This document shows positions 1,786 to 21,052 of a stretch of 21,052 bases of DNA, piece after piece. This DNA is from a virus: positions 1 to 21,052 of IMG/VR virus record IMGVR_UViG_3300035698_010750. The stretch is one strand, 5' to 3'. The notes under the pieces are model-generated. The model was not told where the DNA came from, ran no database searches, and saw nothing but the letters and a program-made list of their open reading frames with translations. The position numbers and the translations under genes are program-made. Position 1 is the first letter of the stretch, and every line of letters starts with the position of its first letter.

Positions 1786-2409
1786 ATGAAACTGTTTACA
1801 GACCAAATTCTAAACATACCTATTGATGATATTAAACCAAATAAAATCAATCCAAATAAGATGCCTCCTCCTACATTTGAAAAACTTAAATTATCATTGA
1901 AAAAATTCGGACAACTTAATCCTATCATTGTAAGGATAGTTCATGAAGAAGATGAATTTCCTGGAGGCGAAGGTTCAACAAAAATCTTTAAATATTATGA
2001 AATCATTGATGGAGAGTGGCGTTATAAGGCTTCAATAGAAATAGGTTTAAGAGAAGTCCAGTGTAAAGTCATTGAGGCTACTTCGGAAGAAGTCGCAGGG
2101 CTCATATTTGCTTCTACTATAAGAGGTAAACATGACGTTTATCACGCAACCGACCTTATAGAGAAGTTAGCAGAAACAGAAACTTCTGATAGTCTAAAGG
2201 CTATGAATCTAGACAAAGCTAAAGTAGAAAGAAAAACTAAATATCATGGCTCTGATAAGATTAAAGTAGTAGCACGAAAAGAAAGAGGCATGAAAGATGA
2301 AAAAGATTCAGGTAATGTTAAATCTATTGATAAATTTAAACAAATGATAATGTTATCAGAAGCTCCAAAACATTGTAAGATCGAAGCAGGAAAGGTTGTA
2401 TTAAAATGA
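1786..2409 (+). CDS. ParB-like nuclease (ParBc/Srx fold) domain protein
   Basis: A 207-residue protein whose first 120 residues match the ParB N-terminal domain: IPIDDIKPNKINPN, a helix with LKLSLKKFGQLNPIIVR, the EIIDGEWRYKASIEIGL signature (the ParB ING.RR.A motif), then a V-C-K-V strand. This fold binds and hydrolyses CTP in true ParB and acts as a nuclease or modulator in phage relatives. The C-terminal part is short and Lys-rich and lacks the full ParB dimerisation region, so a partition role is doubtful and a regulatory or DNA-processing role is more likely. No ParA neighbour is visible. AGGAG lies 5 bases before the ATG. Confidence 0.82.
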   Translation: MKLFTDQILNIPIDDIKPNKINPNKMPPPTFEKLKLSLKKFGQLNPIIVRIVHEEDEFPGGEGSTKIFKYYEIIDGEWRYKASIEIGLREVQCKVIEATSEEVAGLIFASTIRGKHDVYHATDLIEKLAETETSDSLKAMNLDKAKVERKTKYHGSDKIKVVARKERGMKDEKDSGNVKSIDKFKQMIMLSEAPKHCKIEAGKVVLK

Positions 2410-2561
2410 AAACAGAAAAATGTTATGGAAAATGTATGGTTTGTAAAAAAGACTTAGAAGTAATTAAAGTTGATAACGGAATAGATTGGTTATATAAATG
2501 TGCTCATTGTGGAGACTGGGTAGCTAGTAAATTTAAAGAGAAAAAGGCGGTGTTAAAATGA
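2406..2561 (+). CDS. Small zinc-ribbon protein, 51 residues
   Basis: The ATG overlaps the stop of the ParB-like gene (ATGA), and the stop in turn overlaps the ATG of the next gene. Cysteines at 10 and 13 (CMVC) and at 32 and 35 (CAHC), separated by a short strand-turn-strand stretch, form a classic two-knuckle zinc ribbon; Cys6 is an extra. Such mini zinc ribbons are frequent in phage early regions and may bind nucleic acid or protein. Specific function unknown. Confidence 0.7.
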   Translation: MKTEKCYGKCMVCKKDLEVIKVDNGIDWLYKCAHCGDWVASKFKEKKAVLK

Positions 2562-2743
2562 GAATATTAAAATATTTAGGACAATGTGGATTAGGAGTTA
2601 TTGGAACAATTCTAGCACTATTTATTTTACCTATTTGCTGTTTATTCTCTCTTTTATATACAGCAGGTGAACTTACTTTAGATTATATATTAGAATTATG
2701 GAAGATATTTGATTTGGAGGATAAAAATGAAACTAATGTCTAA
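2558..2743 (+). CDS. Small membrane protein, 61 residues
   Basis: After a short basic N-terminus there is a continuous hydrophobic stretch from about residue 9 to 36 (GLGVIGTILALFILPICC and on), enough for one transmembrane helix or a helical hairpin, followed by an acidic C-terminus. It overlaps both neighbours. The family is not recognised; roles such as membrane anchoring or superinfection exclusion are possible but unsupported. Confidence 0.65.
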   Translation: MRILKYLGQCGLGVIGTILALFILPICCLFSLLYTAGELTLDYILELWKIFDLEDKNETNV

Positions 2744-2924
2744 ATCAGAACAAAAACATTATTTAGTAAAAGAACTAAAAAATTTAATTAAAGAAATAAA
2801 TCATTGTCAAGAGTTAATAGCAGCAGAAATGAGTATAAATTATGAAGATATTCTTAATCCTCTTGAGAAAGAATCACTAGAAAGAAAATTTAAAACTATT
2901 GAACTAAGGATAAAATTACAATAA
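2727..2924 (+). CDS. Small hypothetical helical protein, 65 residues
   Basis: Starts at ATG 2727, chosen because GGAGG at 2716-2720 lies 6 bases upstream; an in-frame ATG at 2709 has no such site. It overlaps the membrane-protein gene by 17 bases. The product is charged and probably two helices (KELKNLIKEINHCQEL and LEKESLERKFKTIELRI) with coiled-coil character. No recognised domain. Confidence 0.62.
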   Translation: MKLMSKSEQKHYLVKELKNLIKEINHCQELIAAEMSINYEDILNPLEKESLERKFKTIELRIKLQ

Positions 2925-2936
2925 AGGAGTGAGAAC

Positions 2937-3233
2937 ATGCAAACAACAGGTACATACTTAGCCATACTTATAGATGAGCTTTTTACATCAAGAGGAGATA
3001 TAAAAGACAAATACCATGAATTTAGGGATAATGAGGATTTTGTAAAGATAGAAAGAAAGCTAGTATCACTCCACGCATCATTTCATTGTGATGTTGTTGG
3101 GATTCATAATTTTAAAGAAGCAAAAAAAGAATTATTTAGCTCTGCACAATATCCCTGTTCAACGGCACCATACCCACAATGCAACGGAGCAAATGGATGT
3201 GATACTTGTGAGCATCAACCAGAGGAGGAATAA
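2937..3233 (+). CDS. Hypothetical protein with Cys-rich C-terminus, 98 residues
   Basis: The gene is preceded by AAAGGAGTGAG. The N-terminal two thirds look alpha-helical (YLAILIDELF, FVKIERKLVSLHASFHCD). The C-terminus holds closely spaced cysteines in YPCSTAPYPQC, NGCDTCEH, which could bind a metal, and ends PEEE. I do not recognise the family. Confidence 0.68.
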   Translation: MQTTGTYLAILIDELFTSRGDIKDKYHEFRDNEDFVKIERKLVSLHASFHCDVVGIHNFKEAKKELFSSAQYPCSTAPYPQCNGANGCDTCEHQPEEE

Positions 3234-3235
3234 AA

Positions 3236-3400
3236 ATGCCTGACCCAAGAAACAGAGATTTAGACAAACCGTGGAATGAAACTTGTAGGCGTGATGATGT
3301 TTTTGAACCTTGGAATGACCCAATGAAAAAAGATGACCCTTTTGCCTGTTGGAATCAGATTGATGGGCAAGGGTTATATGAGGAGGAGTGTCGTGGATGA
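3236..3400 (+). CDS. Small acidic Trp/Pro-rich protein, 54 residues
   Basis: GAGGAGG lies just before ATG 3236. The product is rich in Asp, Pro and Trp, with a repeated PWN-type motif: KPWNET, EPWNDP and ACWNQ. That internal periodicity, together with the strong ribosome binding site, argues it is real although short. Its 3' end contains the ribosome binding site and start of the radical SAM gene. Function unknown. Confidence 0.6.
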   Translation: MPDPRNRDLDKPWNETCRRDDVFEPWNDPMKKDDPFACWNQIDGQGLYEEECRG

Positions 3401-4907
3401 TTTAAACATGGATTGTCAAGATATGGCAAATACATATAAGTATTTTAAGGAGAGGTTTGGAACTACTTGGGCACCAGGTATAAAGATGTTTTCAAACGGA
3501 CTTCCATTAAAATGTGATACGTACCAATCTTGTAGAAACTTTTGTAGATATTGTTATGCTAACGAATTGCGAGCTGCTACATTAGGTAGAGTAGGGATAA
3601 AACAAAATCTAAACGTAGCAAGACTACTTAATCTTAAACAACTAGGAACTTTCTTTGATAGAGCATATCAAAAGAAAGACGAGAAAACTCCGTTTATGAA
3701 TTGGGCTGTTCGAAATAAATACTTTATCGAACTAGGTACAACTGGAGAGACTTTTCAAGAGGCTGACTTAGACCTACGTGTCACCTATAACTACTTTAAG
3801 TTAATGTCAGAATATGAAATGCCTATCTTCGTTAACACTAAGCTAAATCTAATTTGTAGAAACGACGAGTACAAAAGACTTCTAATTGAACACAAGGCAC
3901 CTATAATTATTTGTCTAACTCTAACTACAGTAGATGATAAATTAGGAAAACTCTACGAGCCATTGTCTCCACTTCCTAGTGAAAGACTGGCTACAGTAAA
4001 GGAACTAGGTAAATATGACCATATTAAGACTATTGTATATATTTCTCCTTTCATGCCTGGTGTTACTAATATTGATAGTGAGACATACGTTGGTAAGATG
4101 ATAGACGCAGGAGTAGTATCTGCTCATATAAGAGATTTCTACATGCAAGGAAAAATGTTTCAAAGTTCTTTTTGGCAAAACTATATAAAAGAAAACAAGA
4201 AAGATATTGTACCTTTCTTTGGTGGTTATCATACTACTTACGAATCAAGAAAAAGATTTTTAATAGAAGCACAAGAATATGCTACTAAAAAAGACCCAAA
4301 TTTCGTAATAGTAGGTATGAAGAGCAAATGGTTTGAGTTAAATCCACATCATGGAAAAATGAACTACGATATTTTGGGAGACTCATTTAAGAAAGGAGTA
4401 ACAGACTTTACTGCTATTCCTATTATGAGAAAGATTAGAGAGAATAATCAAACTCCACAGCTATTGAAATGGAATAAGATTGGACACAGAGGTATTAATT
4501 TACCAGAAAGAATAAGAACCAATGAGGGTGGTATTAATAATTTAATGGAAGGATTATGTAATTGTAATACTAGTGACCACGATTATGAGATGACAGGACA
4601 AGATTGGCTAGTAGGTGGGTTGTGGAATGGATATATTGGAGACAAACCAGACGGGTTTTTCTCACATCTCGACTATATCTTCCCAGTCCACAACTCAGGC
4701 AACTATTTGAAAGACGAAGACGGAAATTATATTTACGCATATTTACCTAAGAAGGATTGGAACTTAGTAAAAGATAACGGACAAAACTTTCTATTCTTAC
4801 CAGAAAGTACTTCAAAAATGAAGAATCCTTCCGTAGATTATAGTATAGCAAAGGACTTCTTAGTTCCTGAACGACCAATAGGGATTGGGGATAAATGGTT
4901 AAAGTAA
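3393..4907 (+). CDS. Large radical SAM protein
   Basis: About 504 residues. CRNFCRYC (Cys47, Cys51, Cys54 from the chosen start) is the CX3CX2C motif that binds the 4Fe-4S cluster and S-adenosylmethionine. It is followed by barrel-like segments: FIELGTTGETFQEADLDL, MPIFVNTKLNL, IIICLTLTTVDDKLGKLYEP and TIVYISPFMPG. The arrangement loosely resembles spore photoproduct lyase/SplB-type proteins, but the 150-residue C-terminus (GGLWNGYIGDKPDGFF, with a CNCN pair) is not one I recognise. Such enzymes do radical chemistry on nucleic acids, cofactors or peptides; the substrate here is unknown. I chose GTG 3393 because AGGAGG at 3381-3386 is 6 bases upstream; ATG 3378 or 3408 are alternatives. It overlaps the preceding small gene by 8 bases. 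Confidence 0.85.
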   Translation: MDDLNMDCQDMANTYKYFKERFGTTWAPGIKMFSNGLPLKCDTYQSCRNFCRYCYANELRAATLGRVGIKQNLNVARLLNLKQLGTFFDRAYQKKDEKTPFMNWAVRNKYFIELGTTGETFQEADLDLRVTYNYFKLMSEYEMPIFVNTKLNLICRNDEYKRLLIEHKAPIIICLTLTTVDDKLGKLYEPLSPLPSERLATVKELGKYDHIKTIVYISPFMPGVTNIDSETYVGKMIDAGVVSAHIRDFYMQGKMFQSSFWQNYIKENKKDIVPFFGGYHTTYESRKRFLIEAQEYATKKDPNFVIVGMKSKWFELNPHHGKMNYDILGDSFKKGVTDFTAIPIMRKIRENNQTPQLLKWNKIGHRGINLPERIRTNEGGINNLMEGLCNCNTSDHDYEMTGQDWLVGGLWNGYIGDKPDGFFSHLDYIFPVHNSGNYLKDEDGNYIYAYLPKKDWNLVKDNGQNFLFLPESTSKMKNPSVDYSIAKDFLVPERPIGIGDKWLK

Positions 4908-6423: not shown

Positions 6424-6574
6424 TCAGGATAATATACTAGGCTATTGCTACGAATGTAAATGTCTAATTACAACTGATGATGATTATGTAAAAGATAGAG
6501 GAAAAATATTTTGCGCTTATTGTTATAAGGTTAAGAATGATATCGTTGAGGAATTAAATTTTGACAGCGAGTAA
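6416..6574 (+). CDS. Small zinc-finger protein, 52 residues
   Basis: CYEC at residues 11-14, with an extra Cys16, and CAYC at 33-36 make a two-knuckle zinc finger of DksA/LIM-like spacing. The tail is acidic. AAGGA precedes the ATG. It overlaps the upstream gene by 8 bases and the exonuclease gene by 14. Probably a nucleic-acid or protein adaptor; exact role unknown. Confidence 0.68.
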   Translation: MSNQDNILGYCYECKCLITTDDDYVKDRGKIFCAYCYKVKNDIVEELNFDSE

Positions 6575-7364
6575 AATACTCTGGATTGATTTTGGATATT
6601 TTATGTTTAGAGCTATATATGGTTGGAAGAAAAACCCAGCTATACCACCTACCTATATGTGCTTGGTTTCTATAATATCTAATCTCAAAAAAGTCGGTTT
6701 AAATCCAGAAGATACTGTTATTATTGCTGTAGATAGTCCAAAAGGTAGTTGGCGTAAAGAAGTTGACTCGGACTATAAAGCAAATAGAAGAGCTCAAAGA
6801 GAGAAAGATGATATTGATTGGGATAGTATTTTCGAATCTTTTAATCTACTAATAGAGCAAATAGAAGCCTGTACTCCCTTTCACGCAATTGTTGTAGATA
6901 AAATGGAAGCAGATGATATTATAGCTTACGGTTGTAAGAAGTATCAAGATACTACATCTATTATTTTAAGTGCGGATAGCGATTTTGAACAGTTGTGTGC
7001 TTACCCAAAAGTCCGAATTTTTAGTCCTTTATCTAAAAAATATAAAGAAGTAAAAAATCCTTATAAGGTAGTATTACAAAAAATAAGAAAAGAAGCCTCA
7101 GATAATCTTATTAGTCCTATTTTATCTAAAGCAGATTACGAAAGAAGAAATAAAATAGTTAATCTAATAAAGCTACCTGAAGAGATAGAAGCAACTATTT
7201 CTCCTTATTTTGATTTTTTACCAGAGAAGCCTTGGGATATAGAGAGTTTACCATTTGAAACTCTACACTCAAGATTACTTAATATCTACGCACAAGATAG
7301 AGTCGTAGGAAACAAACCAACGAGGAAGAAGAAAAAACCTTCCCCAAAACAAATTACTTTATAA
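6561..7364 (+). CDS. T4 RNase H-like 5'-3' exonuclease (FEN family)
   Basis: A 267-residue protein with FEN/PIN active-site motifs: KILWIDFGYFMFRAIYG at the N-terminus, the KANR arch segment, MEADDIIAYG (acidic cluster) and SADSDFEQL. The C-terminal stretch YERRNKIVNLIKLPEEIEATI closely resembles T4 RNase H. The family removes RNA primers and flaps from lagging-strand DNA. The usual GDxxDxI helix-hairpin-helix element that follows the second acidic cluster is reduced to KEASDNL. The start is taken as TTG 6561: it has GAGGA about 9 bases upstream and gives the complete first catalytic strand, whereas the next in-frame ATG (6603) would cut off the catalytic Asp. The last residues are very basic (TRKKKKPSPKQ). 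Confidence 0.82.
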   Translation: MTASKILWIDFGYFMFRAIYGWKKNPAIPPTYMCLVSIISNLKKVGLNPEDTVIIAVDSPKGSWRKEVDSDYKANRRAQREKDDIDWDSIFESFNLLIEQIEACTPFHAIVVDKMEADDIIAYGCKKYQDTTSIILSADSDFEQLCAYPKVRIFSPLSKKYKEVKNPYKVVLQKIRKEASDNLISPILSKADYERRNKIVNLIKLPEEIEATISPYFDFLPEKPWDIESLPFETLHSRLLNIYAQDRVVGNKPTRKKKKPSPKQITL

Positions 7365-7423: not shown

Positions 7424-7729
7424 ATGGAACTAAAAGTACGAATGCAGTTAAATCCAAAACAAACAATCGAGGCGTCATTTGAAGGTGATAACATACAGGA
7501 AGCCGTATTGGCTGCTGGATGTTTAATTGCTTTTGACGGAGTGTGTGGTTATTGTAAAGGAGAAGAACACGTTCTTCAAACAAGAGTAACAAAAGAAAAA
7601 GGGTATAAATATACTGAATTCGTTTGTAAAGCTTGTGGAGCAAAGAGACAGATGGGTGAGTATCAAGGTGGAAAAGGATTTTTCCTTAAGAATTGGGAAG
7701 AACCGTATGATTCAGAAGCTAATAAGTAA
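7424..7729 (+). CDS. Zinc-ribbon protein, 101 residues
   Basis: The N-terminal half looks like a beta-rich or swapped-hairpin element (LKVRMQLNPKQTIEASF then a helix). It is followed by a zinc ribbon: CGYC, a beta-hairpin and CKAC about 25 residues later. The C-terminus KGFFLKNWEEPYD is conserved-looking. Its place between the exonuclease and the primase-helicase suggests a replication accessory or single-strand DNA related role, but I cannot name the family. AAAGGAG lies before the ATG. Confidence 0.68.
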   Translation: MELKVRMQLNPKQTIEASFEGDNIQEAVLAAGCLIAFDGVCGYCKGEEHVLQTRVTKEKGYKYTEFVCKACGAKRQMGEYQGGKGFFLKNWEEPYDSEANK

Positions 7730-7735
7730 ATAAGA

Positions 7736-7952
7736 AAAATTAGAAGCTAGTGGTGAAATAGGGAACACACCAGTCGGAAAAGCTGGTGATGGGAAGTACA
7801 ACCGTCCATGTAACGTGACTATACGAGTAAAAACATATCTATCCGATTGAGGGAGTATGGTTCCTCATCGGAGCCAGTGGATGATACAACCACAGTAAAA
7901 AACTATTTATGTTTACCATGCCTCGGCAAATCGTTACCTAGCTTTTAATTTT
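7736..7952 (+). ncRNA. Candidate large structured RNA of about 217 nt
   Basis: The stretch 7730-8021 has no credible gene. Its ends are complementary: 7736-7750 pairs with 7938-7952 over 15 bp with a single G-U. Inside, further helices nest without conflict: 7768-7773/7783-7788, 7789-7792/7806-7809, 7810-7815/7932-7937 (stacked on the closing helix), 7824-7827/7922-7925, 7831-7837/7908-7914, 7843-7852/7863-7871 (9 bp with one bulged U) and 7877-7880/7890-7893. G+C is higher than in the flanks. GGAAC at 7762-7766 could also pair with GTTCC at 7860-7864. I do not recognise the class. It may be a stand-alone RNA or the leader of the gene at 8022. Confidence 0.68.
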
Positions 7953-7996
7953 AAGAATATTAATAACCATGTTACATACTTTTTTAAAAATTAGTC

Positions 7997-8014
7997 CCCA
8001 TCCAAAAAGGAGGG
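7997..8014 (+). promoter_or_regulatory. Hairpin covering the ribosome binding site of the gene at 8022
   Basis: CCC (7997-7999) and TCC (8001-8003) can pair with GGGAGG read backwards, that is GGA (8009-8011) and GGG (8012-8014), around an AAAAA loop with one bulged A. The 3' arm is the strong AGGAGGG Shine-Dalgarno sequence, 7 bases before ATG 8022. Formation of this hairpin would mask the site, so it could be a translational switch linked to the RNA structure upstream. Confidence 0.42.
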
Positions 8015-8021
8015 TTCGGGA

Positions 8022-8411
8022 ATGCCAACTATTATAGCAATGACGAAAACAAAAGATGCTGCGAGAATAGGGAACAACTTCGCTCAGTCTACTTGGTATA
8101 GTTTAAAAAAAATTACAGATGTTGAATTAAGTAAAGGTGATGAAGTAGAGATGAAATATGAAAAAGAAGGTAGGGAAAATGTAATCACAGAGATTAGTGT
8201 TACAGGAAAAGCCCCTGCTCAAACTCCTGATGCTCCAGCTAAAAAAGAGTGGAGAAGTAAGAGTCCAGAAGAAAGCGATTGTATTCGTAGACAAGCAGTA
8301 GGAAAGATGGTAGCTGAATCAGTTAAAGCATTAAAAGATTTTTCATCTACTGAGGATTTGATAGCATCAATTGAAATTATATTTAAAACATACGACGAGC
8401 TAACTAAATGA
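8022..8411 (+). CDS. Hypothetical replication-region protein, possible OB fold, 129 residues
   Basis: The N-terminal 60 residues alternate strands in an OB-like order (STWYSLKKITDVELSKGDEVEMKYEKEG, then VITEISVTG). A Pro/Ala linker and a C-terminal helical domain follow (DCIRRQAVGKMVAESVKAL, IASIEIIFKTYDEL). This build, and its place directly before the primase-helicase with which it overlaps by four bases (ATGA), fit a single-strand DNA binding or primosome accessory protein, but no diagnostic motif is present. It has the strongest Shine-Dalgarno in this part of the window, inside a possible hairpin. Confidence 0.6.
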   Translation: MPTIIAMTKTKDAARIGNNFAQSTWYSLKKITDVELSKGDEVEMKYEKEGRENVITEISVTGKAPAQTPDAPAKKEWRSKSPEESDCIRRQAVGKMVAESVKALKDFSSTEDLIASIEIIFKTYDELTK

Positions 8412-11182
8412 AAGAAATATTAGAACACACAATAGAGTATCTTAAAAAAACAATTCCTGATTTTAAAAAAAATCGTAAGGAATTTACTTGTCCTAGTTGT
8501 AAAGCTGACCCCCCAACATGTAATTTTATTAGTGATTATCACTATATCATGGCTTGTTGTAAATGTGGGTTTCAAGGAGATTTAACAGAGTTAATTAATC
8601 CTGATAAAGACAAAGCGTTAGAACAAATAAGAGACTTCTTGGGATTAAAAATTAAAATAAATCCAGAATTAGATGGTCTTTTTTCTTTTTATACAGATAA
8701 TGCTTTTGATTTAGTACCTGTACAAAAAAATGGTAAAGCACCTATTGAAAAAGACTGGACTAATAAGAACCATAAGAACCCAGATGAATGGAAGATGTGG
8801 TTAGAACGTGGATTGAATTTAGGAGTTAAGACAGGTAAAATTAGTAATATAACAGTTATAGATATAGACGACCCTACTTTAGTTGAAGAGATTAAAACTA
8901 TTTTTAACCCTACTACTTATCAAATAACTAATAAGGGTGTTCATTATTTCTATAAGTATGAAGAAGATTTGCCTAAAACAAGAATAGACAAATATAAAAT
9001 AGACATTGAAAATAACGGTGGGCAGGTAGTTATTGCTCCCTCTACAGTTGACGGAATTGAAAGAACAATAGTAGTAGATAAAATAGCTACGATGTCTCCT
9101 GAACTTAAAGAGTGGTTAGTAAAACAAGGAGTTAAGAAACCTCCAAGAATTGATATAACTGAACAAGAAACAGGAGAGAATATAGACCTATCTGTAATAC
9201 CAGAGGGTGGCAGGCATCACATTCTTATGAAGATAGGTGGAGTATTAAGAAAAGAATTAAATACTTCTCAATTAACATTTTCTTTAGGAGTATTAAATCA
9301 ATTAGCTTGTAATCCTAAACTAAATAAAGACGAGTTTAACGCTATTATTCAAAGCCTAAATAAGTATGATGGTTTTGATGAAAAAGACTTAGCTAAAACT
9401 ATCTTAAAGTATCTCTCAATCGTAGAGGAATGTACAGCGAGAGACGTTAAGGAAGCTCTAGGATTTAAGAAAGAAAGAATTGATAAAGTTCTTAGTTATC
9501 TATTAAAAGAAGGCTATGTAGTTAAGAAGAAAAGAATGTATCAAATTGTAAGAAAAGCTGAGTGGCATGATACTTGGATGGAAGAAACAAATGAAGTTCC
9601 TTATAAGTTACCTTACTTATATGATGTAGGAAAGGTTAGAAATGGAGACTTAATTCTAATCGGTGGTAAAAGTGGTACTGGAAAATGTTATGCTAAAGGA
9701 ACTCCAATATTAATGTATAATGGAGAATTTAAGTTTGTAGAAACAATTAAACCTAATGATAAATTAATGGGTATTGACAGCAAACCTAGAAAAGTTATTA
9801 AAATAGGAAATGGAAGAGGCAAATTATTTGAAATAAAACCTAAAAAAGGAACTTCTTTTACCGTAAATTTTGAACATATGCTTTCTCTAAAAAAAGAAGG
9901 TACAAATAATACAATTAATATCTCTGTAAAAGAATTTTTAACTAAAAATAAAACTTTTCAAAAACAGCATAAATTATATAGAGTTCCTATAAATTTTAAA
10001 GAAAAAAATATTCCCTTAGAACCTTATTTTTTAGGTCTTTGGTTAGGAGATGGATGTTCTTATTCATCTGGAATTTGTAATAACGATAAAGAAGTTCAAA
10101 GTTATTGTAAATCTTACTCCAAAAAACTAGGATTAAAGTTTTGGTTTGAAAAAGGTAAAAACGGAAAAGCAGATAGATTTAAAATAACTTCTGGAAGAGG
10201 CGGTAAAAGAGATAAATATAATCTTTCAACCGTTCTAAGAAAATTAAACTTATTATATAATAAACATATACCTATAAATTATAAAATAAATTCTCGTAAA
10301 AAAAGATTAGAATTATTAGCTGGATTATTAGATTCAGATGGATATTTAGGGCAAAACACTTTTTATTTTAGTAATAAATCGGAAAAATTAATTGATGATG
10401 TGAAATATTTAGCTAGTTCATTAGGGTTTTTAGTAACTAAAAAACCTAAATTTGTTAGCGAAAAAAAATATTATAGATTATCAATAATAGGAGACGGTTC
10501 ACTTATACCTACAAAAATAAAAAGAAAAAAAGCTAAAAAAAGAAGAAAAGGTTGGAAAAACCCTTTATATACTGGTTTTTCTATAATTCCAAAAAATAAA
10601 GACAATTATTATGGATTTGAAACGGATGGAAATCATCTTCATATAGTAAAAGAATTTATAGTAAATCATAATACTCATATAGCTATGAATATGATTAAAG
10701 AATTTAAAGACCAAAATATAAAACCTCATTATATATCTTTAGAATCAGGTTCAAGGTTTGCTGAAATAGCTAAAGAGTTATGTTTAATAGAAGGTGATTT
10801 TAAATGGTGTACTCATTTTAGTCCAGAGAGTATTGAGTTAGAACCAAACGCAGTTACTATTCTCGATTGGTTACTACCTAGAGATTACGCTAGTACAGAT
10901 AAGACTTACGAGCATTTTGCTAAGCAATTAGTAAAGCAAGGGGGAATATTGATAGTATTTTGTCAGCTTAGAAGAGACGGAAGTTTCTTTGCTGAAGATA
11001 TGATTAAATTCTTTCCTTCAATTATTGCTAAGTTCTTATACTCTAAGGAAGATGATGGAGAGGCTAGTAAGTTTGAGATAGTTAAAGTTAGAGAGCCATT
11101 AGATAAGAGACAAGGATTTGTTATTCCATGTTTCTACGATTGGCAAGCTAAAAGACTAAAAAGAGTACCAGATAAAGGATAG
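8408..11182 (+). CDS. Primase-polymerase/helicase split by an intein
   Basis: A 924-residue precursor. Residues 28-53 form a primase-type zinc ribbon (CPSC, CCKC). Residues about 95-215 match a bifunctional AEP primase-polymerase domain: APIEKDW, NLGVKTG, the metal motif VIDIDD (Asp152, Asp154) and KGVHYFYK. A winged-helix-like segment (CTARDVKEALGF) leads to a RecA-like ATPase with Walker A GGKSGTGK at 419-426. The intein starts at Cys427, immediately after the catalytic Lys, and ends at Asn755; Thr756 then completes the P-loop GKT. Downstream are a Walker B-like TILDWL and VFCQLRRDG. After splicing, about 595 residues remain. The protein should prime and unwind DNA at the phage fork. The helicase part is short for a DnaB/T7 gp4 motor. 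Confidence 0.87.
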   Translation: MKEILEHTIEYLKKTIPDFKKNRKEFTCPSCKADPPTCNFISDYHYIMACCKCGFQGDLTELINPDKDKALEQIRDFLGLKIKINPELDGLFSFYTDNAFDLVPVQKNGKAPIEKDWTNKNHKNPDEWKMWLERGLNLGVKTGKISNITVIDIDDPTLVEEIKTIFNPTTYQITNKGVHYFYKYEEDLPKTRIDKYKIDIENNGGQVVIAPSTVDGIERTIVVDKIATMSPELKEWLVKQGVKKPPRIDITEQETGENIDLSVIPEGGRHHILMKIGGVLRKELNTSQLTFSLGVLNQLACNPKLNKDEFNAIIQSLNKYDGFDEKDLAKTILKYLSIVEECTARDVKEALGFKKERIDKVLSYLLKEGYVVKKKRMYQIVRKAEWHDTWMEETNEVPYKLPYLYDVGKVRNGDLILIGGKSGTGKCYAKGTPILMYNGEFKFVETIKPNDKLMGIDSKPRKVIKIGNGRGKLFEIKPKKGTSFTVNFEHMLSLKKEGTNNTINISVKEFLTKNKTFQKQHKLYRVPINFKEKNIPLEPYFLGLWLGDGCSYSSGICNNDKEVQSYCKSYSKKLGLKFWFEKGKNGKADRFKITSGRGGKRDKYNLSTVLRKLNLLYNKHIPINYKINSRKKRLELLAGLLDSDGYLGQNTFYFSNKSEKLIDDVKYLASSLGFLVTKKPKFVSEKKYYRLSIIGDGSLIPTKIKRKKAKKRRKGWKNPLYTGFSIIPKNKDNYYGFETDGNHLHIVKEFIVNHNTHIAMNMIKEFKDQNIKPHYISLESGSRFAEIAKELCLIEGDFKWCTHFSPESIELEPNAVTILDWLLPRDYASTDKTYEHFAKQLVKQGGILIVFCQLRRDGSFFAEDMIKFFPSIIAKFLYSKEDDGEASKFEIVKVREPLDKRQGFVIPCFYDWQAKRLKRVPDKG
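9686..10672 (+). mobile_element. Intein with LAGLIDADG endonuclease in the helicase P-loop
   Basis: This in-frame insertion of 329 residues lies within the primase-helicase. The splice ends are typical: it begins CYAKGTPI (block A) and ends GNHLHIVKEFIVNHN (blocks F and G), followed by extein Thr. The block B histidine is in FTVNFEHML. The homing endonuclease carries both LAGLIDADG helices, YFLGLWLGDG and LLAGLLDSDG, each with its catalytic Asp, so it may be active. The mid-section is Lys-rich and A+T-rich compared with the extein. Self-splicing is needed to rebuild GGKSGTGKT, so helicase activity depends on it. Confidence 0.93.
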
Positions 11183-16068: not shown

Positions 16069-16238
16069 GATTAACTCTTAGAGACGAAGTTCGACAAGTA
16101 GACATAACTTGTCATAGAGATTCAGATATTTTTGAAGTAATGAGAGAAATTAGAGGACTATTAATAGCTTGGGGATATCATGAAGCAACTGTACTTGAAG
16201 GTTGTGAATATATAGTAGAAGAATATAAGGAAGATTAA
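16050..16238 (+). CDS. Small acidic hypothetical protein, 62 residues
   Basis: Overlaps the recA-like gene by 19 bases and ends in TAATG shared with the second HNH gene. It has a beta-strand pair (MRLTLRDEVRQVDITC) followed by a helix (DIFEVMREIRGLLIAWGY) and a final strand, a compact alpha/beta build. GGAG-containing sequence precedes the ATG. It resembles many short phage proteins next to recombination genes but has no named family that I recognise. Confidence 0.65.
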   Translation: MENFKMRLTLRDEVRQVDITCHRDSDIFEVMREIRGLLIAWGYHEATVLEGCEYIVEEYKED

Positions 16239-16759
16239 TGGCATATTCTGGAAAACCAAGAGGTATGACTGGAAAAAAACATTCTACTATAGCTAAGAAA
16301 AAAATGAGTTTGGCTAAAGTTGGTAAACATCCTTGGAATTATAAACTAACTAAAGAAACAGATGAAAGACTTAAATTATGTAGTAAAAAATATAAAAACA
16401 GAAAGATTACTTGGAAAAATAAACTTAGAAAACCCCATAAGATGTCTGAAGAAGGGAAAGCTCAAATAAGAAAAAATGGTTTAGGACATAAAGTTAGCAA
16501 AAAAATTAGAAAAATAATAGCTGAAAAAGTTTCTAAAGCAACTAAAGGAAAAAAGAATATTAAAGTAAGACATCATTTATATGGTAAAAACTCTGAAGAG
16601 ATTTTAAATACAACTAGAAGTTTACATAGAAAAATACATAGTTCAGCTTATTGGTATTTATTAGAAGTTTTAGGAAAAAAAGAGATTGATAAATATATAA
16701 AATGGTTTTTTAAAAAACAGGGGAAAGAAAATTCAACTACAAAATATAGCAAACTTTAA
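16238..16759 (+). mobile_element. Free-standing NUMOD3/HNH homing endonuclease 2
   Basis: A 173-residue protein with three NUMOD3-like blocks (GMTGKKHSTIAKKKMSLA, PHKMSEEGKAQIRKNG, GHKVSKKIRKIIAEKVS) and a C-terminal nuclease with VRHHLYGKN and RSLHRKIHSSAYWYLLE, closely parallel to HNH 1, including a shared KWF.KK C-terminal pattern. That parallel suggests its natural end is near 16724; the final ten residues (ENSTTKYSKL) read over the start of the polymerase gene in a different frame. Its ATG overlaps the upstream stop codon. Confidence 0.78.
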
Positions 16760-19700
16760 AAGAAAAATTTATTTATTTATTAGAGAAAATGATGGTTCTC
16801 TAACAATAACAAATGATGATAAATTTTATCCTTTCTACTATGAACCTGCTGATGATGGAGATTATTATGGATATGATGGTATTCCTCTTAAAAAAATAAT
16901 AGTATCAGAACCAAATGAGATAGCAAAACAAAGGAGTTCTCAAAGTTATAGTGCTGATATTAAATTTGTAAATAATTATTTGATTCATAAAGTTGATAAA
17001 CTTACAGTAGCAAAACCTAAGTATTTGTTTATAGATATAGAGGTTGTATCTCCAAAGGAGTTCCCAGAACCAGCTCAAGCGAAATATCCAATTAGTTGTA
17101 TTACTGTATATAACTCTTTAGATAAAGACTATGTTACTTGGTGGTTACCTGATTATGAAAATGAAAAAGAAATGTTAGATGATTTTTGTTTCTACGTTCA
17201 TGGAGAAGCACCTGATATTATCTTAGCTTGGAATGTTCAGTTTGATTACACTTACTTACATAATAGGATTAAAGATTTTGCTAAAAGAATTAGTCCTATT
17301 GGTTTAAGTAGATACGGAGAAGGAGAGAATTTATTTTATCCTACTGGTATTAGTATAGTTGATTATCTAGGTTTATATAAAAAAGTATTTATGAGAGAAG
17401 CAAGCTATGCGTTAGATTATATAGCTCAAACTAGATTAAAAGAAAAGCCTTGGCCAAAGACAGACTTTGGAGAGGTAAGTGAATTAGTTAAAGCTAAGAA
17501 TATTAATGACGTTAAGAGAATGGTTAAGATTGAAACTAACGAACAGTTAATAGATTACTATAATGAGATTAGATGTTTAACTAAAACGAAGTGGGAAGAT
17601 TTATATTTTAATAGTAGGATTGTAGAAATGCTCTTACTAGAAGAAGCCAAACTTAAAAACGTAGTACTTCCTAATAAACAAAAAGTATCTGAAAAAGGAG
17701 AGTTTCAAGGAGCTACAAGAGAATCAGAACTTATGGGAGCCCAGTTTAATATAGGGAAGTTTGACTTAGGTTCAGCTTATCCTAATATGATAGTAAACTT
17801 TTGTTTAGACTCTCAAAATATAGACCCAGTTAAGCTAGACGAAAATATAGAAATAGACGGAGTTTATTATAGTCAAAATAAAGAAGCTCTATTACCTTCT
17901 ATCGTTAAAAAAATCTTAATTTTAAAAGATGACCTAAAAGTTCAACAAAAAAAAGACCCACGATTAAAAAAGAAGTACGATGGTATTAAGGCTGTGGTAA
18001 ACAGCACCTTTGGAGTCATGGGGAACCAATACTTTCGTTTATATGATAATAGAGTTGCTTCTAGTATTACATATTTAGTAAGGGATTTAATCCATTATAC
18101 TAGAAAACGTTTAAAAGAGAAGAATGTAGACGTTGTTTACTGGGATACAGACAGTTGCGCAAAAGACACTCCAATATTAATAAAAGAAAATAATAATATT
18201 AATATTATTCCTATTGAAGATTTATATTGTGCTCCTAAATCAAAAAATACAAAAGAAATAGAAATTAAAAATAATATAAAAATTTGGACTGATAAAGGTT
18301 GGAGTAAAATTAAATATGTATATAGACATAAAACCGATAAAACGATGTACAGAATTTATACTAGAAAAGGAATTGTTGAAGTTTCTGAAGACCATTCATT
18401 AATAATAAATAATAAAGAAATAAAACCAAACGAATTAAATATAGGAGATACTATAGATATTATTGATTTTCCTAAAATATATAATATTATTCAAGTAAAT
18501 TTAGATTTAGCTTGGATAATAGGATTCTTTTTAGCTGAGGGGCATTGTAATAAAATATTATATAAGAAAAAAGATGTTAAAAGACGTTGGACAATTTCGA
18601 ACCAAAATAAATTTTTATTACAAAAAGCCCAAAAAATATTAAATACATACGGATTTAATACTATTATAAAAGACTATAGAAAATCTAGTAATTGTTATAG
18701 TTTAAGACCTATTAAATCTAAAATTCCTTTACATTCTATTTTTGAATATTGGTGTTTAACAAAAACAGGGGATAAAAAAATTCCTAATTTTATTCTCCAG
18801 TCCTCAAAAGAATCTTTAAAATCTTTTTTAAAAGGATATTTTGAAGGAGACGCAAACATACAAAATAATATTACTACTGTAATGACAATTGATAAATCAT
18901 TAGCCCAAGGAGTTTGTTTTATTTTAAATAGATTAGAAATAGATTATTCTTTAGGATTGCGTAAAAATAAACCGAATGTAACTGTAATTAGATTAATAAA
19001 TAATAAACATGATAAAAGAATTAAACAATATAATAAAATTAAAAATATAATAAAATTTAAAGTTGATGATTATATTTATGATATAGAAACAGAAAATCAT
19101 CATTTTTGTGGTGGAGTTGGAAATGTTTTATTACATAATAGTGTCTTTACAACTACTATTGAAGACATTACTGAAGACCTAAACCAATATATTCAAGATT
19201 GGGGTAGACAATATAACAAAGATAGTATTGATATGAAGTATGATTATGAAGGATATTTCACTGCGGTCTTTTTCTTAGGAAAATGTCACTATTTCGGACA
19301 TATTTTTGGAAAGACAGAACCAGAGATTAAGGGAGTAGAAATTACTCGTAGTAGTTCTAGTAAATATGAAGCTCATTTTCAGCAAGAACTATTAGAACTA
19401 GTCTTAGCTAAAAAATCTAAAGATGAAGTTGTAGATTGGATTACTTCTGAAAAAGAAAGATTAAAAACTTTACCTATAGAACAAATAGGGTTTCCAGCTA
19501 AGATTCAAAATAAAGTATACAAGACTCTTACTATTTTTAAAAGAGCCTATGACCTTAGTAGAAGTATTAATTCAAAGTTTGAAGTAAATTCTGGAGAGCT
19601 GTTTTATTATATCTTTGTAAAACCTATTACTAAAGACGATAACGTATTAGCTTTTAAACAAGATAATAAAGACTTTATAGATTGGAGTATACATTTAGAT

Positions 19701-19811
19701 TGGGACGCTATTGCTAAGAGAAGTATTATTAAAAAAGCTAAGACTATATTTGAAGCCCAAGGTTGGGAGACAAGTAAACTTGATAACCCAGACCAACTAG
19801 GATTATTTTAA
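16731..19811 (+). CDS. Family B DNA polymerase with intein; non-ATG start
   Basis: Exonuclease motifs are YLFIDIEV, AWNVQFDYTYLHNRI and IVDYLGLYKK; polymerase motifs are A, FDLGSAYPNM; B, KAVVNSTFGVMGN; and C, YWDTDS, which is split by an intein and continues SVFTT. The frame is open from 16701, and the stretch before 16980 is clearly polymerase N-terminal domain (KRKIYLFIREND, FYPFYYEP, IPLKKIIVSEP, SADIKFVNNYLI), so the TTG at 16980 is not the start. No ATG, GTG or TTG lies further upstream in frame. ATT 16731, with AGGGG at 16719-16723, is my best guess; frameshifting from the overlapping HNH gene is the alternative. About 1026 residues before splicing and 698 after. It should be the replicative polymerase. 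Confidence 0.85.
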   Translation: MQLQNIANFKRKIYLFIRENDGSLTITNDDKFYPFYYEPADDGDYYGYDGIPLKKIIVSEPNEIAKQRSSQSYSADIKFVNNYLIHKVDKLTVAKPKYLFIDIEVVSPKEFPEPAQAKYPISCITVYNSLDKDYVTWWLPDYENEKEMLDDFCFYVHGEAPDIILAWNVQFDYTYLHNRIKDFAKRISPIGLSRYGEGENLFYPTGISIVDYLGLYKKVFMREASYALDYIAQTRLKEKPWPKTDFGEVSELVKAKNINDVKRMVKIETNEQLIDYYNEIRCLTKTKWEDLYFNSRIVEMLLLEEAKLKNVVLPNKQKVSEKGEFQGATRESELMGAQFNIGKFDLGSAYPNMIVNFCLDSQNIDPVKLDENIEIDGVYYSQNKEALLPSIVKKILILKDDLKVQQKKDPRLKKKYDGIKAVVNSTFGVMGNQYFRLYDNRVASSITYLVRDLIHYTRKRLKEKNVDVVYWDTDSCAKDTPILIKENNNINIIPIEDLYCAPKSKNTKEIEIKNNIKIWTDKGWSKIKYVYRHKTDKTMYRIYTRKGIVEVSEDHSLIINNKEIKPNELNIGDTIDIIDFPKIYNIIQVNLDLAWIIGFFLAEGHCNKILYKKKDVKRRWTISNQNKFLLQKAQKILNTYGFNTIIKDYRKSSNCYSLRPIKSKIPLHSIFEYWCLTKTGDKKIPNFILQSSKESLKSFLKGYFEGDANIQNNITTVMTIDKSLAQGVCFILNRLEIDYSLGLRKNKPNVTVIRLINNKHDKRIKQYNKIKNIIKFKVDDYIYDIETENHHFCGGVGNVLLHNSVFTTTIEDITEDLNQYIQDWGRQYNKDSIDMKYDYEGYFTAVFFLGKCHYFGHIFGKTEPEIKGVEITRSSSSKYEAHFQQELLELVLAKKSKDEVVDWITSEKERLKTLPIEQIGFPAKIQNKVYKTLTIFKRAYDLSRSINSKFEVNSGELFYYIFVKPITKDDNVLAFKQDNKDFIDWSIHLDWDAIAKRSIIKKAKTIFEAQGWETSKLDNPDQLGLF
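18156..19139 (+). mobile_element. Intein with LAGLIDADG endonuclease in polymerase motif C
   Basis: A 328-residue in-frame insertion directly after DTDS of motif C. It begins CAKDTPILIKEN (block A), has VEVSEDHSLI (block B His), two endonuclease helices, AWIIGFFLAEGH and FLKGYFEGDAN with Glu and Asp at the catalytic positions, and ends DYIYDIETENHHF then NVLLHN (blocks F and G); the next extein residue is Ser. Archaeal and viral family B polymerases carry inteins in the same catalytic motif. Splicing is required to restore the metal-binding Asp environment, so unspliced polymerase should be inactive. Confidence 0.93.
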
Positions 19812-20878: not shown

Positions 20879-21052
20879 CAAGAAAAAGGGTCAAAAATTT
20901 GAATCTAAAGCCTCTCGAACAATTCGTTCGGGAGGACTTTGGTGTGACCCTTTAGATATTAACTATAAAGATTTTTGCATAGAAGCAAAATACACTGATA
21001 AAAAAGGATACAGGTTTAGTTTAGAGTTATTAGAAAAGATTTGGGGACAAGC
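20856..21052 (+). CDS. Hjc-like Holliday junction resolvase, 5' part
   Basis: An open frame from ATG 20856 that runs off the window after 65 residues. The N-terminus is basic (MLKKKLNSKKKGQKFESKA), then SRTIRSGGLWCDPLDINYKDFCIEAKYTDKKGYRFSLELLEKIW. KGxxFE, D, and xIEAKYT form the PDDEXK nuclease motif of archaeal-type Hjc and related phage resolvases: the Asp of DPLDINYK and the Glu-x-Lys of IEAK. It would cut four-way junctions or act as a related nuclease. The ATG lies inside the upstream gene with only a weak GAG site. The first 100 bases can form nested stems. Confidence 0.7.
   Translation, partial: MLKKKLNSKKKGQKFESKASRTIRSGGLWCDPLDINYKDFCIEAKYTDKKGYRFSLELLEKIWGQ
20885..20953 (+). promoter_or_regulatory. 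Nested stem-loops within the start of the resolvase gene
   Basis: An outer stem pairs AAAGGGTCA at 20885-20893 with TGACCCTTT at 20945-20953 (9 bp, perfect). Inside it, CCTCTCGAAC at 20911-20920 pairs with GTTCGGGAGG at 20926-20935 (10 bp, one G-U) around a 5-base loop. Both stems lie inside the coding region. They may be an RNA element controlling translation or decay, or a cruciform in DNA. Confidence 0.5.

Follow-up and report, generated by a model that had tools for sequence, protein, structure and literature searches.

A GC-rich, end-paired element in a viral replication cassette as a possible orphan noncoding RNA gene

The window, that is, the whole stretch of 21,052 bases that was analysed, represents a record of an uncultured virus without close relatives in the collections searched. 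It contains a replication cassette in which the exonuclease gene, a zinc-ribbon-like gene, a further downstream gene and the prim-pol gene are all encoded on the plus strand, and which is interrupted by a gene-free gap of 292 bp (7730-8021). An element of 217 nt is located within this gap. The locus has the following features:

6561-7364, plus strand: 5'-3' exonuclease gene of the cassette (PF02739, E 1.2e-16)
7424-7729, plus strand: zinc-ribbon-like protein gene, directly upstream of the gap (four Cys, C-x2-C pairs)
7732-7735 and 7953-7956, no strand assigned: AAGA on both sides of the inverted repeat, a possible 4-bp target duplication that may be due to chance
7736-7952, plus strand: candidate structured noncoding RNA of 217 nt (fold z-score, GC content, no Rfam family, no ORF)
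7953-8021, plus strand: spacer of 69 nt; a weak hairpin (7997-8014; helices with p 0.74-0.83) surrounds the ribosome-binding site
8022-8411, plus strand: downstream gene, the product of which has a beta-rich N-terminal domain like OB/cold-shock folds (AlphaFold, Foldseek)
8408-11182, plus strand: gene of a prim-pol/helicase-like replication protein with an intein (matches to PF09250, Hom_end_hint and LAGLIDADG)

The first-pass annotation had described the gap as the only long one without genes, and this was essentially correct: the stretch 16760-16979 is in frame with the DNA polymerase, and 992-1111 comprises just 120 nt. No ORF of at least 50 amino acids is present in 7730-8021. The six-frame pieces of the element matched no Pfam family, and tblastn with its frame pieces yielded no matches. 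A decayed protein gene was thus ruled out as the origin of the element, as no protein remnant was found in any frame.

Folding of the element recovered the closing helix exactly where it had been placed, with AAAAUUAGAAGCUAG (7736-7750) pairing with CUAGCUUUUAAUUUU (7938-7952) in 15 pairs, one of which is a G-U. Its mean pairing probability was 0.90-0.94, whether the element was folded by itself or within 307 or 551 nt of context. The predicted structural features of the element are:

7736-7750, plus strand: 5' arm of the closing helix, alternatively a left terminal inverted repeat (p 0.94; frequency in gap shuffles 0.005)
7768-7788, plus strand: hairpin CACCAGU-CGGAAAA-GCUGGUG (mean pairing probability 0.89)
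7788-7809, plus strand: weakly determined hairpin, GAUGG/CCGUC or AUGG/CCAU (GAUGG/CCGUC p 0.40 or less)
7810-7815 with 7932-7937, plus strand: inner helix GUAACG/CGUUAC of the first-pass annotation, present in the minimum-energy drawing (ensemble p 0.12)
7842-7872, plus strand: long hairpin UCCGA-UU-GAGGGA...UUCCUC-A-UCGGA (mean pairing probability 0.96-0.98)
7877-7893, plus strand: hairpin GUGG/CCAC (mean pairing probability 0.95)
7938-7952, plus strand: 3' arm of the closing helix with a T-rich end, alternatively a right terminal inverted repeat (pairing probability)

It had been proposed that eight helices nest without conflict inside the closing helix. This is true for one minimum-energy drawing, but not for the Boltzmann ensemble, in which the only firm helices of at least 4 pairs were 7736-7750/7938-7952, 7768-7774/7782-7788, 7842-7854/7861-7872 and 7877-7880/7890-7893. 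A 3-bp helix at 7919-7928 was also firm. The contiguous packing of helices, which had been put forward as hard to obtain by chance, did not hold up in the ensemble either, where the probability does not exceed about 0.4 for the hairpin near 7789-7809 and is 0.12 for the helix 7810-7815/7932-7937. The argument from exact abutment was thus built on those helices that are the least certain. The element has no conspicuous promoter or intrinsic terminator.

The predicted folding energy was -60.2 kcal/mol, compared with a mean of -45.9 kcal/mol for shuffled sequences (z -3.57), and none of 200 shuffles reached a value as low. The minus strand folds equally well (z -3.66), with the G-U of the closing helix turned into a mismatch. 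The GC content of the element is 41%, compared with 30% for the contig; it lies in the top 1.1% of 217-nt windows and exceeds every contig stretch except the repetitive 5' end. Composition does set the element apart from the rest of the contig, and GC-rich noncoding stretches in AT-rich genomes are often a sign of structured RNA.

These values have to be weighed against the possibility that the element is a spacer or foreign DNA without any RNA function, which folds as is ordinary for its composition and was noticed because it occupies the one gap. In favor of this possibility, 12 of 384 tiled 217-nt windows of the contig, most of them coding, had a z-score of -3.2 or lower, and the whole 292-nt gap reached a z-score of just -2.1. 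Shuffling of the whole 21-kb window produced, per shuffle, about 3.8 stems of at least 15 pairs with a loop of 60-280 nt, and the equal folding of the minus strand points in the same direction. Against it stand the high GC content in a compact AT-rich viral genome, the 0 of 200 shuffles, and the gap itself, shuffles of which contained such a stem in only 0.5% of cases (p about 0.005). We regard the absence of an RNA function as unlikely. Nevertheless, the evidence for the element is weaker than the first-pass annotation had held, because coding windows have similar z-scores and a helix of this kind is to be expected somewhere in 21 kb.

Several additional features of the contig were observed. 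The DNA polymerase frame is open and protein-like back to 16701, with no ATG, GTG or TTG before 16980, and a homing-endonuclease-like ORF (16238-16759) overlaps its start; this arrangement in 16238-16980 suggests either that the polymerase gene carries an insertion at its 5' end or that it uses an unusual start codon. Both the prim-pol (8408-11182) and the B-family DNA polymerase (16980-19811) harbor inteins, which include LAGLIDADG endonuclease domains. A long nested hairpin at 20880-20965, AAAGGGTCA...TGACCCTTT enclosing CCTCTCGAAC/GTTCGGGAGG, lies within or overlaps the start of a nuclease-like ORF, and its windows have the lowest z-score of the contig (-4.7). The 5' end of the contig (1-333) consists of a GC-rich short tandem repeat that is open in several frames.

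The element is located directly upstream of the gene 8022-8411 on the same strand and ends 69 nt before its start. An AlphaFold model of the gene product, generated from eight relatives, had a pLDDT of 73.9 and contains a five-stranded beta-rich N-terminal domain followed by a helical tail. Foldseek yielded weak matches, mainly to CusF and cold-shock proteins, the best of which had an E-value of 0.012. It is a fair guess from this model that the product is an OB-type nucleic-acid-binding protein, possibly a single-strand-binding protein. In phage T4, a pseudoknot in the gp32 mRNA is the control element for the single-strand-binding protein. The element resembles translational operators of phage single-strand-binding proteins, such as the T4 gene 32 leader, in that a structured RNA precedes the gene of a possible single-strand-binding protein, but it is far larger, is 69 nt away and is not conserved with the gene. 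The element might accordingly be a private cis-acting leader or intercistronic element that tunes translation of the OB-fold-like gene or the stability of the prim-pol message, and the hairpin overlapping the ribosome-binding region would be in line with such a role. However, the OB-fold matches are weak, no leader whatsoever precedes the homologues of the downstream gene, and no alternative-structure switch is evident except for a 13-bp G-U-rich pairing, which was also seen in 4.5% of the shuffles. A private leader is an improbable explanation, on a par with the lack of any RNA function.

Protein-guided scans revealed about ten records with the same cassette. The zinc-ribbon-like gene is conserved in L003, L004 and L014. 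The zinc-ribbon gene is separated from the OB-like gene by only 4-12 nt in L002/L003, L004 and L014, with no element between them. In L016, the exonuclease gene runs directly into the OB-like gene, and the two overlap. Since the element is absent where the genes abut in the relatives, either about 290 bp were inserted here or they were lost in all others. Judged from this gene order, the element is apparently an insertion that, of the viruses sampled, only this one carries, and thus cargo rather than a conserved leader. A replication-linked RNA and a riboswitch-like leader had been among the options initially considered. A conserved role in replication or in the regulation of the downstream gene is not supported, as the relatives keep the genes without the RNA; the neighboring genes are all that links the element to replication. 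End-paired, GC-enriched gaps were also observed in the cassette of other relatives (L005 2974-3120, L002 1770-1876 and L004 2555-2650), and these are unrelated in sequence to the element and to Rfam.

The gene order in the relatives, which have the flanking genes without the insert, would also be compatible with a small non-autonomous mobile element similar to a MITE, inserted between two genes and bounded by 15-bp terminal inverted repeats and an AAGA direct repeat. The terminal inverted repeats are present, with 14 of 15 bases matching and one mismatch, and AAGA occurs on both sides; however, it comprises 4 bp only, and a repeat of this length is weak evidence in AT-rich DNA. Moreover, the element is present in a single copy in the contig, neither the 50,697 phage records nor the 72,556 plasmid records contained similar DNA, and a strong interior hairpin exists besides the paired ends. 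A mobile element of this type is quite improbable.

The DNA-similarity search of the phage and plasmid records was only one of several searches for homologues. A single-sequence covariance model (R1) yielded only chance matches in the relatives' loci and whole records, and its best match (L024, 12.6 bits) turned out to be unrelated on inspection. When viral contigs were scanned with 16-mers, a single match with unrelated surrounding sequence emerged, and an 18-mer scan of genomes gave none. A 14-mer scan revealed 121 places that share such a stretch, among them L101 4135-4204, a noncoding stretch next to tRNAs. Here, an identical nine-base loop (GAAGUACAA) belongs to a hairpin that is enclosed by a long end-paired helix. 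This place was set aside as a homologue: it had been picked from 121 places for its 14-mer, five-pair stems are to be expected in several of them, the remainder of the element does not align, and the L101 region itself finds nothing in the phage collection. The surrounding region, L101 3904-4376, comprises about 470 nt of noncoding sequence and immediately precedes tRNA genes in a viral contig of 90 kb; it has a z-score of -2.9 and no Rfam match except the adjoining tRNAs, and is a possible large RNA in its own right. Taken together, no homologue of the element was found in any of the Rfam, phage, plasmid, viral or genome scans made. The description as a large structured RNA is unproven because no homologue was available to show covariation; it is plausible, and for now the element is plausibly a one-off rather than an established new RNA class.

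That the element is unrecognised was confirmed. Rfam 15 gave no match to the window at gathering scores, so that group I and group II introns, tRNAs and other Rfam families were rejected as its identity, and a cmscan of 7640-8100 at E-values up to 10 yielded only three irrelevant sub-threshold matches. The element contains look-alikes of the cobalamin riboswitch (RF00174), namely the short stretch GUGAAAUAGGGAAC and a GCCAGUGG motif; a cobalamin riboswitch was ruled out, as neither an RF00174 search of the window nor the cmscan gave a match at E-values up to 10. GOLLD, ROOL and OLE are several times longer than the 217-nt element. They are like it in being structured RNAs without coding function, and GOLLD and ROOL are known from phage-related contexts; in contrast to them, the element has no Rfam match and no tRNA neighbors in the window. 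All three are counted among the large ornate RNAs of bacteria and phages (PMC12286853).

Three of 12 records with the cassette encode Ro60, a TROVE protein with a vWA domain, with Y-like RNAs beside the Ro60 gene. TROVE proteins have already been reported in jumbo phages (PMC7824862), and in Deinococcus bacterial Rsr is tethered to PNPase by a Y RNA (PMC7790460). In G007, five tandem Y-like RNAs (L216 4096-4652, plus strand) are located directly upstream of Ro60 (L011 594-2117), and in G010 four Y-like RNAs (L223 639-1044, minus strand) are located upstream of a Ro60 gene that is split over several frames (L016/G010). Both arrays are in or near the same replication cassette. Seven copies could be aligned. 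They have the frame GGUGNCGUAG...UACUUC...GUUNCC in common, and their inner helix covaries strongly, with changes on both sides in 6 of 8 pairs; 13 double-change cells were observed, compared with 5.6 in shuffles. A model built from the seven copies detected two held-out copies (E 4e-5 and 7e-7). Most copies are short and lack the tRNA-like part, and Rfam (YrlA, RF02553) recognises one of them, L216 4270-4380, with an E-value of 3.4e-8, below the gathering score. In the third record (L006), two strongly structured RNAs with z-scores of -6.3 and about -2.7 (1902-2090) are located between the OB-like gene and the Ro60 gene (2107-3624), which sits just before the prim-pol gene. Their sequence differs from that of the Y-like RNAs of G007 and G010, the layout is similar, and Rfam does not recognise them.

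The viral and bacterial Y RNAs, which associate with Ro60 or Rsr, resemble the element in being noncoding, with paired ends and several interior arms; the element differs from them in its uninterrupted closing helix. One reading considered was that of a divergent Y RNA whose Ro60 partner is encoded at another site of the virus or by the host. The element also has GGUGAAAUAG at the place of GGUGACGUAG of the viral Y RNAs. However, it does not match the YrlA model (7640-8100, E-values up to 10), which also misses the L006 RNAs, and the viral Y model built from the seven copies (R2), applied unfiltered to 7700-8050, reached at most 3.3 bits. The Ro60-site stem (GGUGNCGUAG, 8-bp inner helix, UACUUC, 3' loop) has no pattern match in the window, and the element lacks both the conserved UUACUUC motif and the inner helix. 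The 21-kb record, possibly a fragment, contains no TROVE/Ro60 gene. The element was thus rejected as a member of the viral Y RNA family on account of the model score, the missing motif and the absence of Ro60 from the record, and a divergent Y RNA with a partner encoded elsewhere is very improbable.

In summary, the element is a GC-rich noncoding insert that separates two genes adjoining each other in relatives; its ends are complementary, and several of its hairpins are firm. We favor the reading that it is an orphan noncoding RNA gene that is carried inside the replication operon, released via its end helix and active in trans, and we assign it a probability of roughly 45%. It is supported by the z-score of -3.57, the GC content of 41%, the robust closing helix and the absence of a protein remnant, and also by the fact that the cassette of relatives takes up other RNA genes (G007, G010 and L006). 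It is weakened by the lack of a homologue, the similar z-scores of coding windows, the uncertainty of most interior helices, and the fact that neither a promoter nor an intrinsic terminator is conspicuous. A private leader, an inverted-repeat insertion and chance are jointly about as likely as the favored reading.

As an orphan noncoding RNA gene, the element would be transcribed on the plus strand together with the operon. The end-to-end helix would hold the RNA together and mark it for excision, which might be performed by a double-strand-specific or a 5'/3' trimming RNase. The product would be a stable RNA with several arms and a function in trans, probably serving a protein as scaffold or decoy. 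More doubtful is the further proposal that the element represents a new class of virus-encoded, end-paired, multi-arm RNAs of about 217 nt, which are excised from the replication operon and serve proteins in trans as scaffold or decoy; the lineage would then be one in which structured RNA genes have entered the replication cassette again and again.

Taken alone, the element is a single-copy, single-genome prediction of a kind that is a common product of genome scans. If it is a real RNA, the replication operon of a virus lineage without close cultured relatives would gain a noncoding RNA of no known class, and the idea that folded RNAs travel as cargo in these compact genomes would be strengthened.
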